A stretch of DNA of 64,000 nucleotides from positions 1,100,501-1,164,500 of the forward strand of contig WAEK01000013.1 of NCBI GenBank assembly GCA_011634665.1, given 5' to 3'. Positions 33,789 to 40,416 of the stretch are shown piece after piece (the stretch's first letter is position 1; the number at the start of each line of letters is the position of its first letter). A model generated the notes under the pieces. That model ran no database searches and was not told the DNA's origin. It saw nothing but the letters and a program-made list of their open reading frames with translations. A program made the translations under genes and the position numbers. Origin of the DNA: Mortierella sp. BCC40632. Taxonomy: Eukaryota > Mortierellomycota > Mortierellomycetes > Mortierellales > Mortierellaceae.

Positions 33789-33814
33789 ATTATCCCTTTG
33801 CTACGCTGAGTTTG
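33789..33814 (+). repeat. Candidate left terminal inverted repeat
   Basis: The first 12 bases match the right end perfectly and about 20 of 26 match overall when read inward. The match begins ATTATCCCTTTG, with TA at 33791-33792 as possible target-site dinucleotide. Confidence 0.5.
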
Positions 33815-34159
33815 CTCGTCTCCATTTTGAAACTGCGGCGGAAAAAAATAATCTGTCCTACATCTGTTCTCGAATTTCTAAAACCCACAGTTCATACTAT
33901 CATATTCGAACTTTTCCTGAGCGCGTAGTGGTGGTAAGGGAGTATTTTCTACGTCTACGAAGGTACAAAAGCGACTCCTCTTCTTCCTCTTCTCCCTCCT
34001 CTCCCTCTTCATCCACGCTTCCTTCCACTTCATCTCCTTCAGCTTGTTCAACGGCTTCATCTCCGTTATCGCTGTACCCCTCCTTACCCACCTCTATTCC
34101 ATCTCCGAGTTCGTACTATGTCCAAATGCTCATCGTATCCAATAGGAGGAGCTTGGCGA

Positions 34160-35023
34160 GTGTCATACAAAGCGCCTAGGCGGTGGCCTAGGCTCGAAGC
34201 TTCTGCCAACCTCGCGCACCCACCCGGTTGCTATAGCAGCAGTGATCCTCACAAGAACATTTGCGACATGACCGAAAAGAGTCTCTGTCCTATTACTTCT
34301 TTGCGTACATGAATCTTTACGCTGCTGATGACAGACTCGGCTGCGTTGAGATGTGGGCTGTAAGGGGGAGCGAGCTTGTGGATGTGGTTGGCGTTTGTCA
34401 CTGCATCTCTGGCCCTCCGGGTTTTGTGAAGTTTGGCGTTATCCATGAGAAGATAGCGGGGCGGACCTCCTTGCAAGGCGGGGAAGATTTTGTCTTGCAG
34501 AAATCTGTAAAGGATTCTTGGTTGTATGCACCGCGCTTGAAATGGTAAGCAAGGATGCCGTGTGATCAACAGCGACAAGGAGAGACATTTTAGGTCCACG
34601 ATTGAAGGGAACCCTTTGGATGGCATGCCTTCCCTGGCGGCATGACCGTACTTGCGATGTATGTGCAGATTGAAACCAGAAAATAAAGCTATTCATATTG
34701 CCAGCAGTGGCCATAACCTGTCCCCCACGTTGGTCAATGAGCGCCTGGTCGCTGTAGCGTTCAGACTCGGTCCTCGTCAGTTTGAGCCTGTAGATGGTTA
34801 CCTTGTGGATGGCCTTGCTGACAATGCTTCTGCCAAGGGGACGTTGGACCTGAAAGTGATCGTTCAGTTTGTTCGTGAGTAACTCTGTTGTGAGGGCTGA
34901 GAACTCATCCATTTTCTCTCCAAGAAAATCGATAAGCTGTTTCTCAACTCTGCTGCGATTGTTGCCTCTCTGGGGAGCTTGTAGAGTTTGATGCAAGTTA
35001 AAACGCGGCTTGGGTGATATCAA
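34160..35023 (-). pseudogene. Tc1/mariner-IS630-like (DDE_3) transposase remnant
   Basis: Reading right to left, the pieces are: a helix-turn-helix-like segment (LTTELLTNKLNDHF, then SIVSKAIHKV); SGFNLHIHRKYGHAARE in another frame; FNRGPKMSLLVAVDHT; GILAYHFKRGAYNQESF in a third frame; then RYLLMDNAKLHK and LAPPYSPHLNAAE. In these last two the Asp and Glu are separated by 34 residues, the DD34E spacing of Tc1 and IS630 transposases. A further shift leads to the last recognisable segment, VREVGRSF. At least four frame breaks are needed, and the first catalytic Asp expected just before SGFN is not visible. The gene is dead. An acidic frame at 33900-34091 could be the decayed C-terminal tail. It is transcribed away from the adjacent Fanzor. 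Confidence 0.85.
34174..34193. repeat. GC-rich palindrome pair
   Basis: GCCTAGGC at 34174-34181 and again at 34186-34193, separated by GGTG. Each copy is itself a palindrome and together they can form a hairpin. They lie in the last codons of the transposase remnant. Confidence 0.7.
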
Positions 35024-35108
35024 AAAATAAGCTCCTTCAAAAGCTTTATTCCTCTTTGCAGAATCCTACACAAAAAAAGACTCTCCTCCAGACCACGACT
35101 GACCCCCT

Positions 35109-38100
35109 ATGTCCTTCCAAACACGCATTTTCCCTGCTCCTGTTGGTGGTGTGGAACCACTTCCATTCCAGCAGCTCGTTGAACAACAATCGCGCCACTG
35201 GGCTAACAGCCAGAATCAGGCTCATTTCCAGGCGCGCTCGGAAGAAGCTGCGAAGGACCCAACCCTTCAAAACAACAAAGAAAATGCAGTATTAGCAATA
35301 AACCGGCTTCTCGACCTTGGTCTCGTTGTCAATACGGACCCGACAGATTGCGGACTAGCACAGTTCATCCAGCGACATTTCTTGCAACGTCCAGAACAAT
35401 ACAAATTGCATTTATTGCTTACCCTCACAGCAAAGGAGACAATAGACATCGATTGCCCAAACAGTTCGCGACTTCTTTTCCAGCACCTTGCGCAAGAGCT
35501 TGACATTGCGATTTACCTTTTTTCGAACCGAGCAGCCCCACGGATATTCTCGTCAAAAGAGCCCAAGATGGCCTGTGCATTTTTGCATATCGTGGACTCG
35601 TATCTCTGCACGAGCGAATATCTTGCACTTTGCTTTGCGAATCGAAGAACAGAGCGCATGGTGCGACGGCAGACCATTGCAAGAACAAGCCGCCTCATTC
35701 AGTCGCAACCGGCCACCGTCCCTGGGTTTCCCGCAGTATACCGCAAGGGACCTCGCAAGCGCACTCGTCTGCCACAAGGCAGTTTTTCTCATACCACGCA
35801 ATCATCCTTGCTTCAGTCGCTGGAGGAGGCCTGGTAAGCGTTTTAAAGTCTTGCTGTGCAAAAAAAAAAAAAAAAAAAAAAAAAAGTGAATGACTACTCA
35901 CTAAATCTCTCTTGGAAAACGCAATAGTCGCCGTCATATTCGGAAAAGGGCTACAGATCGCATCGATGCACTGTTTGGGAAAAAGAGAAAGAGAAAGAAG
36001 AACGAGGATGCACCCACAGATGATGGTAACCAGGCAAAGGCAGCATTATCCGACGAACTGTGGCGAGTTATAAGTGCTCCTCGTGGACTTTACACAGACG
36101 TGATGGAGATCCACCGCGCTTTAACTCACGATGATTTGACGTATTCTCGGTTTCGAGAAAAGACCCTGGATGCCATAGCAGCGGTTAATGGAGAAACTCG
36201 TGCCAGCCACGTCAAGCTAGAGGACAGAGATTCCCTCAATGACGAGAACCTCAACTTATTGTTTTGGTTTACTATCCTTGACGACAGTTTTGATGAAATC
36301 TGGACCGGTGTCTACGAAGACAAGCTTCAGTCTTCTGTTGCTCAACCAGAGCCGAGTCCCCTGGTCACTACTACTCCACAAACAACTCAAGGCGAAGACG
36401 ACAGTGCTGTTGATGATGACGATGGTCAAGACCAGGAAGAGTTTCGAACATGTACAGTTACACTAAAGCAGGTCTTGCGCACTGAGTTGCTCGAGGGTCC
36501 CGACCAGTATGCTCGCATAGTCGAGCTCCTTGAGCGCCGACAAGAAGCTGCCACAGATTTGGAGGATCAGATTTACACTCTCACCCACAAGGGTGTCTTG
36601 TTGGTATATATCCTATTTCCATCAGCAATTTTTTTCTGCAACATAGAAAAAATTGTAGAATTCTCATATCTTCTCATGCTTTAGCTTGCAAATGGCGCCA
36701 TGTGGACCGGTGAAGTGCAATCATATGATTTAAGCAGGTTATTCCCACCGGGATTCGAACTTCCAGAGGAATTACGAGCCATCAATGTTTCACCGCTGCC
36801 TGATGGACTTCAAGAGGAGATCGAAGGGGCCAAGAGTAATGGTCGCACAGAGCTTTTGAATGTCTTCAGTCAAAATCACCTCAGTTCAATGGTCACCCAT
36901 TTTACAGCCAAGCAATCCAAGATTGGTGATGAAGCAGAGGAGAGGATACTCAGGATTGCTGAGATGGAAAACAACCCTGTTTCATTCTGGACACAGATGT
37001 CACACAAGATCTTTTCTATGTCCCGATGTCAATCCGTGATTCCACGCGACGGCATGTCCAACACAACGAGTGCCCACCTTCGCCAATGCTCCACAATGAT
37101 CAGCAATCTATGGCAAGGACCGATTTATGCCAAAAGCCTCGAATACATCACCCGGTTCTTGTTACGAACATGGTTGGCAAGTCGGCGTGAAGAGGCAAAT
37201 AGGGATCGCAGGGCACAGTTCCAACAAGCGAAGAAAGATATTGAGGAAAAGCGTGCCGAGCGTCGAGGTGACCAGCTTTCTCCGTCCCATTGGAGAAACT
37301 GTATGCGACATCTCCTGGACAAGCTAGCTGACTGCGACTGGTTGACGACTCAGCCAGATGAAGGCACAGTTACTGAATGGCAGCAGGAATGTACAAGTCA
37401 ACGACGTCTCCAATTGCTACATGATATAGTTGCGCTGGCCAAAAAGAACCCTGGTCCAAGGGAGTGGAACCAAAGGCCCATCATGCCTTTGTCTGAGCCT
37501 GAGGCTATCGAACCCATTGAACCCGAGGAAGGAGAAGATGGACATGATGAGCAAGACGAGTTTTTAGATGAGATTACGATTGAGCTAGCGCAAGACGGGT
37601 TTGATGAAAAACTTCTATCCGATACTGCTGCCGAAGAGTCACACAACCAACATCATGTAGTCTCGCTGACATCATCGACAGCAACATCGACAGCAGTCAA
37701 AGAGCCCAGCAGTAGGCGACTAAATTCTCTTCAGTCTCTCCTAAAAGTTCTCTTGGAATCGCCATCGCCTTGCAAACACTATTCATTCGAGGACGTCCAA
37801 AAAGCCGCATTTGAAGACTTCAGTCGTGATGAGTTGGAGGTTGTCAGGGATCTCGCCAACGAGCTGCGACCCTTTGTGCCACGTCGACGGATCAATAAAG
37901 AGGGCAACGGATACCGCCAGCACAGTCCCCATGTTGTCCTTCGCGCCCCCATAGTATTACTTGCGAATTCAGTAATGCAGGCCACAGAGAATAGCTGATT
38001 TGCCCGCCGGTTGTGCCCAAATGTAGCCACAGGGAGTTTACATGCATTGCATCTCGGTCCTATGCAACTATTCGAGGCTTTGTGTGCCTCCTCGGAAGGC

Positions 38101-40274
38101 CACTTTGATATCAATGGAGCAAATGGCAAACCCATCAGCAATGTCACTGAAGTTTGCGCTCCAAAGGAAAACAAAAGCAGCGTTTTTGCTGCCTTTTTTG
38201 ATATGACGCGGATCGAAAAGATTTGCAGGCAACATGGAATCCTTTTTGGAAATCGGTAATGTCTGCCTTCAGATGCGATCTGTCAACTGTATCGAAGACT
38301 TCTAGCTTATTTTCTAACTCCTCCTTTTCCTTTTATTCTTGGCATAGCATGATGTTTGTAGACGAGCACACAATCCATATGGTTGGTCGTCAACTCACTG
38401 CAAAGGACGATCCAGCTCGACACCCAACGCCAAGCCCTGCCAAAGAAAGAGAGGGAGGATTCATGGATGGTAAATGGGTCCGAATCTGGCAGAGCAGACA
38501 TCAAGCCAAAAGTGTGGATGAAATTGAAGAAGAGATCGCGATGGCCAAACAGCAAGTCGAGAGACTCAAGACCATGGAGTCTACAAGAAAGAGGACGACT
38601 ACCCAACTGCGGAAGGATGCCTCGGACGCCACCTATTTGTTCAAACGCAACAAAGGTAGCCCTGAGCGAGATGCCCTCTTTGCAAGAATGAAAAATAGGC
38701 AGGCCATTGCACGCAATGCAGAGGACAAGCTCGCGCAAATACAAGAACAACTGGCCACGGCCAAGAAAGCTTTGTATTACTGGAGAAAGATTTGTCTTGC
38801 GGCCAAGTCTTCAGCCCGGTTGAGCAAGAAGGTCGGCAAGGGTGACATGACCGGTGCCATGATGTCATCGCCGTCATGGGAACTCCCAGCCATTGAAGGC
38901 ACCCCATCACATGTCGATATCTCTGCACTGTTGAATCAGCACGGTCAAGTTGTGAACAGCCGAAAGAGGCTGGTAGCGTTTTGGACCGAGGACCCGGGAG
39001 TCCGTGTAATGTCCCAGAATGTCCCTCGGACTTTGTCCGAGATTAAGGAATCCATGAACCGTTTCCAAGTGCTAGAAGGTGAGGATAGGCAAAGAAAAAT
39101 GCAATGTGAGAACGTGTGACCATTCTGACGAATCAAACCGCCAACACTATTCTTTAATCGTAGATTTAGAGGATTCTGCCATGAGCACGGACGTAGACAC
39201 TGAAGGCAATCAAGATAATCTGCTCGAGTCTATGGGTCTCCGGATGCAAAGCGATCTCAAATGGATTTCCAGGCTGCCCGTGCCGAAGCCCGGGCACTCA
39301 AACTTCCGGCAGCTACCAAAGTTACCGCCAAACAGATCAACGAAGTGTCATTTTGCAACAAACTCGCCCGCGCACGCGAGCGAGCTCTAAGAGAAGAAAA
39401 AAACAAGGATGTCAAGAGTGCACTTGAGAATCTCTCCAAGAACGAGGCCTCCTTGTCATCAGTCAGAACAATGGATCAGGTCGACAAGGCGACTGAGGCA
39501 CGGGCAGAATCCAAAAGCGTTCTGCGTCAATTCAACAGAACAAGATCACTCCAAAAACTAAAACGAACCAAACGACACCGCACTTGCAGGGCATGGACCA
39601 AGTTTGCCAGCCACATCCGAGACAAGGCCATAATACACACAGTTGAAGGAGCAAGAGCTCAAGACACTAGATCGCCATCTGTCCACGATCATGATGGGTT
39701 TTGCAACGAGTGCCAGGAGTATGAGGTCCAGAAACTGGGTTTGGATGGCTTCCGCCACCCTTCAGAGTGCATCAAGAAACGGCCAGAAGTACGACTGGTG
39801 GGATTCATCGGGGATGCAGGAACTGGAGTGGGGTCAAGAATAACAGGATATGCACGACGCGGTGGGAAATAACTCTGGCAAGAGCACCGACAGCAAGCAA
39901 CCGTTTTAGTAACGGACGAGTATTTGGCAAGCAAACTTTGCCCGATGTGCTTCCGACCGACTGCACCGGCACGGTCGCGTCGGAAGATCGGCGAAAAGAT
40001 TCGAGTTGTCAGTGTTCGTGGGGCAATGGAATGTAGAAACAAGAACTGTAAATCATTCCAGTGTGGGTACACCACCAAGCCCCGGGACAGCCAAGGAGCT
40101 GTGAACATCGGTGTGAGTGGTTTCTATCGAGTAACGAGCAGGGACAAGTCGGCGATGCCCTGCTTTTCGCGGTCCACAAGACATGAACGCCAGTTACCCT
40201 TAACTGGAGCAACCACGCGTGTCCAACTTCCGGCAGTTGAAGCCATGGGCACTCCCAGCTTGGGATATCTTTAG
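35109..40274 (+). pseudogene. Fanzor (eukaryotic TnpB-like RNA-guided nuclease), long form, inactivated
   Basis: Five exons (35109-35833, 35928-36603, 36685-38255, 38348-39078 or 39105, 39164-40274) would encode about 1,600 residues. The C-terminal third is the nuclease. RuvC-I Asp is in AFWTEDPGVRVMSQNV (GAC 38991-38993). A mid-domain block VGFIGDAGTGVGSRITGYAR follows. Then comes VTDEYLASKLCPMCFRPT, with a conserved Glu (39918-39920) beside the first half of a Cys4 zinc finger. The finger closes with MECRNKNC, followed by the RuvC-III motif KPRDSQGAVNIG (Asp 40086-40088). This order is that of TnpB/Fanzor proteins. Lesions are TGA at 37996-37998, TAA at 39870-39872 and a one-base frame change near 39235. 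The rest of the frame is intact, so decay is recent. The roughly 1,100 N-terminal residues have no recognised domain beyond a weak OTU-like stretch (LFQHLAQELDIAIYLF). Known members cut DNA under guide-RNA direction. Confidence 0.87.
35860..35885. repeat. Poly(A) run inside Fanzor intron 1
   Basis: Twenty-six consecutive A lie within the first intron of the Fanzor gene (35834-35927), shortly after the GTAAGC donor. Confidence 0.95.
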
Positions 40275-40416
40275 GTATGTGTGCGTTGAAGTCGTTGTAT
40301 TGGATAGAAAAAAATTGAATTAATTTTTAACACAATCTATTTTTTTTTATCGGGAACTGGCTTCTCTCGTGAAACTGATCGTTCACTTCACGAAATTAAC
40401 TTATCAAAGGGATAAT
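40275..40416 (+). other. Fanzor 3' flank and right element end; candidate guide-RNA region
   Basis: These roughly 140 bp lie between the Fanzor stop and the candidate right terminus. In TnpB and Fanzor loci the guide-scaffold RNA is transcribed from the end of the ORF into the right end of the element, and the guide lies just outside. The segment has a short hairpin, TCGTGAA at 40367-40373 with TTCACGA at 40387-40393, partly inside the candidate inverted repeat. T9 lies at about 40341-40348. No RNA is proven by sequence alone. Confidence 0.35.
40391..40416 (-). repeat. Candidate right terminal inverted repeat
   Basis: It is the inverted partner of 33789-33814. CAAAGGGATAAT at 40405-40416 is the exact reverse complement of the left 12 bases, with TA at 40413-40414. 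Confidence 0.5.

Follow-up and report, generated by a model that had tools for sequence, protein, structure and literature searches.

Do the transposase and the Fanzor-like gene lying side by side on contig C13 of Mortierella sp. BCC40632 form one mobile unit, as an earlier note on this DNA had proposed, or do they come from separate elements? Several unrelated superfamilies of transposons carry Fanzor1 genes, and to our knowledge it is not settled how these genes pass from one carrier to another. We analysed a stretch of 64,000 nucleotides (hereafter the window) and sought further copies of its parts in its own genome (49.9 Mb in 62 contigs). The reading that we prefer, with a probability of roughly 0.75, is that the stretch between the two outer ends is chimeric, made up of parts of two families of TA-targeting DNA transposons, here called T and F, rather than being one original unit, F being a Fanzor-only element with one gene for a Fanzor1-like protein of about 1,600 amino acids (aa); the figure covers both statements jointly. 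A complete F element would be about 6 kb long. The features of the stretch are the following.

33791..40414, no strand: whole chimeric stretch including the edge TAs; left edge common to T copies, right edge common to F copies
33791..33841, plus strand: T-type left end (TATCCCTTTGCTACGCTGAGTTTGCTC...), also present with TA in copies C6a, C6b, C7b and C8, eroded in C10
33903..34975, minus strand: transposase remnant, located by tblastn with the 430-aa C6a protein; DDE_3
34986..35026, no strand: junction of 41 bases with no match to the T copy C6a or to the F copies
35109..40274, plus strand: Fanzor1-like gene of five exons (35109-35833, 35928-36603, 36685-38255, 38348-39078 and 39164-40274) with GT/AG introns; full-length relative P0001
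40275..40412, plus strand: right-end stretch, a candidate guide-RNA region only, placed as in the Fanzor systems described in the excerpts of PMC10432273
40361..40414, minus strand: F-type right end (reverse complement TATCCCTTTGATAAGTTAATTTCGTGAAG...)

The 12-bp inverted match and its two edge TAs, on which the claim of a single unit had been built, are present: ATTATCCCTTTG at 33789-33800 and its reverse complement at 40405-40416 have 12 consecutive identical bases, with TA at 33791-33792 and 40413-40414. Taken alone this match is weak, with a local alignment score of 12 that was reached by 67 of 2000 shuffles. Both outer ends are nonetheless real transposon ends, because other copies in the genome stop at the same points, five other loci for each end. 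In the right-end stretch, nine copies could be aligned over about the last 75 bases with a mean column identity of 71%. The best-kept T and F ends both begin with TATCCCTTTG or near it, which accounts for the matching outer bases of the window. By comparison with these copies, the outer ends of the stretch belong to two different families.

All 12 pairings of ends (100 bases each) were compared by local alignment against 2000 shuffles. Besides the pair of the window itself, the T-left and F-right ends of C8 scored 11 (179/2000), the F-left end of C1 scored 26, 28 and 28 with the F-right ends of the window, C8 and C3, respectively (0/2000 each), and the F-left end of C12 scored 21 with the F-right end of C8 (0/2000). 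The two T ends scored 18 in C7b (1/2000) and 12 in C6a (129/2000), and the T-left end of the window scored 16 with the T-right end of C7b (6/2000), 9 with that of C6a (855/2000) and 10 with the F-left end of C1 (503/2000). The own ends of C1 scored 11 (220/2000), and some true end pairs are too eroded to score. These scores indicate that each end of the window has a better partner elsewhere, among T or F ends, so that the two ends were rejected as the inverted repeat of one family, and the two genes of the window do not lie inside one matching pair of ends.

T is, as defined by its copies, a Tc1/mariner-type element of about 1.65 kb with its own right end. Its only near-complete copy is C6a (about 1,648 bp), which has an open frame for a 430-aa transposase, and C7b is a 645-bp derivative with T-left, T-right and TA at each edge. 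The inverted ends and TA expected of Tc1/mariner elements are found at both ends of C7b; since the ends of C6a pair weakly and its right TA is lost, the T-right end rests mainly on C7b. The right end of both copies differs from that of the window, and no Fanzor gene is found in the stretch examined. A search with the T-left pattern gave three matches (control 0), and one with the T-right pattern gave five (control 1), of which one is the right end of C7b and three are T-left ends. When the genome was searched at the DNA level, at least six matches were obtained for the left 412 bases and at least two for the transposase body, and for F at least 13 for the right 637 bases and at least 12 and at least 14 for two stretches of the Fanzor gene; these counts are lower bounds, include the window each time and contain several matches that are pieces of one copy. 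A TA-anchored search for ends around related transposases gave nothing above the level of shuffled sequences. A locus on C4 (L031/L058, C4:2864188-2866382), where a fragment of the Fanzor family and a decayed transposase of a distant relationship are arranged head to head with about 1.5 kb between them, was considered as a second composite and not counted, since its transposase is 33% identical to that of C6a and a look for shared ends found none. At another locus (L002, C10:1049214-1052458), a T-left fragment adjoins an ORF that, by eye, resembles a LINE endonuclease.

The minus-strand remnant of a DD34E-type transposase, the second element of the earlier claim, was borne out. It matches DDE_3 (PF13358) with E=1.1e-11 (45.2 bits against a cut-off of 28.6), a domain also above cut-off in C6a, and the IS630 model NF033545 with E=7.1e-10 (38.8 bits, under the cut-off of 100). 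In C6a, 34 residues separate the second Asp from the last catalytic position, where Gly stands instead of Glu; the window keeps Asp and Glu at this same spacing, as read from the alignment. Its first catalytic Asp is missing, about 10 bases being gone there near 34685, residues 1-62 with the HTH are also missing, and what remains is spread over three reading frames as four overlapping pieces, two of which contain stops. Judged from its sequence, the window transposase is dead and cannot work as it stands. On the minus strand at 34728-34825 there is also a weak match to the twister-sister ribozyme (E=0.21; 23.1 bits, where the gathering score is 34), which is probably due to chance.

For F, six loci (the window, C8, C3, C7, C11 and C1b) have a well-kept right end with TA; in C1, C12, C8b, C8c, C3b, C24, C6c and C27 this end is eroded or lost. 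The Fanzor copies C1 and C12 run upstream past the point matching 35027 of the window and into a different left end, which in C1 is TATACCTTTGGTCAATTGATTTCGTGGAG and also occurs in a fragment on C27. The earlier note had named copies ending elsewhere as what would speak against a single unit, and such copies were found on both sides: C1, C12 and the C27 fragment have another left end, and C7b and C6a another right end. The F-end pattern (at most three mismatches) gave seven matches (control 0). C1 measures 1,024 bp and is derived from F, having the F-left end and a right end that is eroded, and C12, C11 and C7 have a common F 5' region that is missing from the window. Against the two-family reading, the F-left end of C12 is without a clean TA and that of C27 reads CA. 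Among the copies found none has both F ends intact, the right end being eroded in C1 and lost in C12, and C7, C11, C3 and C6c have no recognisable left end even when about 2 kb more upstream is included for each.

The Fanzor-like frame is in a different state from the transposase next to it. Translated with X in place of two stops and one frameshift, it comprises 1,605 residues; the stops are TGA at 37996 and TAA at 39870, and the reading frame shifts near 39233. When stops were counted in the window's frame across the Fanzor-like copies, the window had 2 in 1,600 codons, compared with 10/668 in C8, 4/405 in C3, 5/189 in C1, 26/1,536 in C12, 25/1,479 in C7, 21/830 in C6c, 14/377 in C11 and 12/461 in C8c. 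Moreover, the third-position ratios are 1.38-2.29 in six pairs that include the window and 1.08-1.21 in four pairs without it. The window's frame is thus the best kept among the copies examined and shows the mark of past selection; its few stops together with the third-position excess suggest a selected Fanzor-like gene through most of the history of the window lineage. The far worse damage in the adjoining transposase suggests that the element, if it moved, depended on a transposase supplied in trans.

The point where the two families meet can be placed closely. T similarity ends at 34985 (transposase residue about 62) and F similarity begins at 35027, and neither a T remainder right of 40416 nor an F 5' region left of 33789 was found in the window; an F element nested in a T element whose remainder persists was therefore rejected. 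As far as similarity to the copies can tell, the element in the window consists of the left part of T followed by F, whose own left end is missing. One further such locus is C8, which has a T-type left end, the F body and the F right end, and no transposase gene. Its T piece is much shorter (about 110 bases) and its F piece slightly longer than those of the window, so that the breakpoints differ, and the 200-base flanks of the two loci are no more alike than shuffles, except for a few bases beside the left edge that extend the alignment. The same end types in unrelated flanks suggest that a chimera with mixed ends may have moved as a unit. In a tree of 386 columns, C8 groups with C3 and the F-left copy C1 (support 93/92), and a longer, gappier tree gives the same group at 57/91. 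On the latter, the AU test did not reject a grouping of the window with C8 (p=0.341) or with C8 and C3 (p=0.418). Of the claim that transposase and Fanzor gene form one unit, there remains that both outer ends are real and that C8 has the same end types; against it, T and F occur separately elsewhere.

If the locus were a genuine composite, its ancestor would have contained T-left, transposase, Fanzor gene and F-right; the window and C8 would be deletion derivatives, and the F-left copies a side branch in which the right end was copied to the left side. Such an origin is compatible with the same arrangement at two unrelated sites with TA edges, with the outcome of the AU test for the window and C8, with the identity of the T-left and F-right outer bases over 12 bases in the window, and with similar Mariner-Fanzor1 elements elsewhere (excerpts of PMC3627910). 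It has to accommodate, however, T copies with their own right end and no Fanzor gene (C7b and C6a), F copies with a 5' region that the window lacks (C12, C11 and C7), and the 386-column tree that joins C8 to C3 and C1, and we regard it, side branch included, as unlikely. A fusion in place would mean that T and F inserted adjacent to or nested in each other, that deletions then brought them together in two separate events, one at the window and one at C8, and that the chimera never moved. It is a variant of the chimera reading, and its odds overlap with those given above for that reading; we hold it to be a serious candidate that falls a little short of even odds. The unlike T and F breakpoints of the two loci, their separation in the 386-column tree and a transposase so damaged that it could not itself have moved the unit all argue for it; yet it needs two independent fusions with the same order and orientation and with T-left and F-right outermost, and there are few T and F loci in the whole genome.

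For the large plus-strand gene, a first protein search gave a single match, P0001, a hypothetical protein of 1,584 aa from Actinomortierella ambigua (Mortierellaceae), with 43% identity over 99% coverage. Profile searches, each limited to scoring the roughly 8,000 candidates with the most shared words, added relatives from A. ambigua, Entomortierella parvispora, Podila humilis, Mortierella alpina and Hesseltinella vesiculosa and one further protein; P0006 comes from Entomortierella, and P0007 and P0008 come from M. alpina. Full-length relatives occur in three other species of Mortierellaceae. That the gene encodes another transposon protein with a similar zinc-binding end, and not a Fanzor, would agree with several results. 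PF07282 was absent from the scanned ORFs of the window at E<=1 and was found under cut-off in three of eight relatives scanned (P0001 0.018, P0005 0.016 and P0007 0.028); the PDB sequence searches matched no Fanzor, one of them listing two Cas12f chains at E=0.93; and two AlphaFold models, made with five and nine sequences, are too poor to use (mean pLDDT 43.1 and 45.8). The Fanzor1 motif published in the excerpts of PMC3627910 is D-X(125,275)-[TS][TS]XX-C4-X(5,50)-RD. In the seven sequences with the motif region, the spacing from Asp to the motif lies within 125-275 in P0005 (178), P0007 and P0008 (both 267) and above it in P0003 (278), the window (284), P0001 (285) and P0006 (291); in addition, the window has Ala at the first [TS], P0008 is one Cys short, and P0002 and P0004 are without the zinc motif. 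On the other side, the relatives keep Asp, [TS][TS]XXCXXC, CX4C and RD in the published order, and a comparison of profiles with Fanzor pieces from this genome gave a probability of 78.6 and E=1.7e-5 over 31 columns, the profile of these pieces consisting of six rows found with PF07282, among which L087, on the wrong strand, was left in. A protein other than Fanzor seems improbable to us, slightly more so than the ancestral composite. Since PF07282 stays below cut-off, and motifs and relatives carry the identity, we label the gene Fanzor1-like rather than a proven Fanzor; with this qualification, the identification given in the earlier note holds. A comparison with PHROGs gave nothing useful.

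The N-terminal part of about 950 residues (35109-37998 in the window) is conserved in the full-length relatives from Mortierellaceae and matched no Pfam domain in the window protein or the relatives scanned. The same genome also contains canonical-looking Fanzor genes: 48 matches to PF07282 are listed (for example at C6:2623485 and C12:1330336), of which 42 exceed the curated cut-off, and several have an identical score (five at 42.6 bits) and may be recent copies. One such canonical match (C6:2623485-2623673) is separated by about 3.8 kb from a match to a Tc1-type transposase on the same strand (C6:2627474-2627995).

Returning to the chimera of T and F, we consider it most likely that F is a non-autonomous TA-targeting element for which a T-type transposase, recognising the common TCCCTTTG, would act in trans, and that a T-left and an F-right end could occasionally be used as one pair, giving rise to chimeras such as the window and C8. 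A point against the chimera reading is that the motif common to T and F is short. By analogy with the Fanzor systems described in the excerpts of PMC10432273, where guide RNAs come from the right end of the element, the F protein might take its guide RNA from the right end and then cut the emptied site, so that the element would be copied back. That the T-left/F-right chimera was itself mobilised as a unit, at the window and at C8, so that a Fanzor element changed its transposon via the common terminal motif, in a lineage whose Fanzor-like proteins are, at about 1,600 aa, unusually large, is a tentative proposal that we consider rather doubtful.

Parts of this picture have precedents. Elements combining a Mariner-type transposase and Fanzor1 were published in 2013 (Bao and Jurka, PMC3627910, excerpts), as were Fanzor-only elements with TA edges. 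Like the window, PGv-1 and PUl-1 of that source have a Mariner-type transposase and a Fanzor1-type gene within one pair of ends with TA edges; unlike them, the window has outer ends from two families, and its genome has copies with one gene only. F is similar to PUl-4, a Fanzor-only element whose ends are of Mariner type, and to SPu-1 of Spizellomyces, both of which have a Fanzor-type gene between inverted ends with TA edges (excerpts of PMC3627910 and PMC10432273), and differs from both in a divergent motif and in being represented in this genome by decayed copies only; in addition, its product has about 1,600 aa, compared with 633 aa for SPu-1. T agrees with the DD34E group of Tc1/mariner (IS630-Tc1-mariner) in size, TA edges, DDE_3 and the distance from the second Asp to the last catalytic position, but it is known from one near-complete copy, in which Gly occupies the last catalytic position. 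A full-text search for Fanzor together with Mortierell- returned no papers from the open literature, where most subscription journals are missing, and we have not seen a large Fanzor-like family of Mortierellaceae or chimeras with mixed ends described there.

The points of interest are the size of the protein, about 1,600 aa, and the apparent swap of ends. The large protein with its long N-terminal part and no recognised Pfam domain there merits a specialist's look. Two families with a common outer TATCCCTTTG, and chimeras of them at two loci, offer a concrete and testable route by which Fanzor1 genes could change carriers; if the chimera was indeed mobilised as a unit, it would show how Fanzor1-type genes pass between transposon families.
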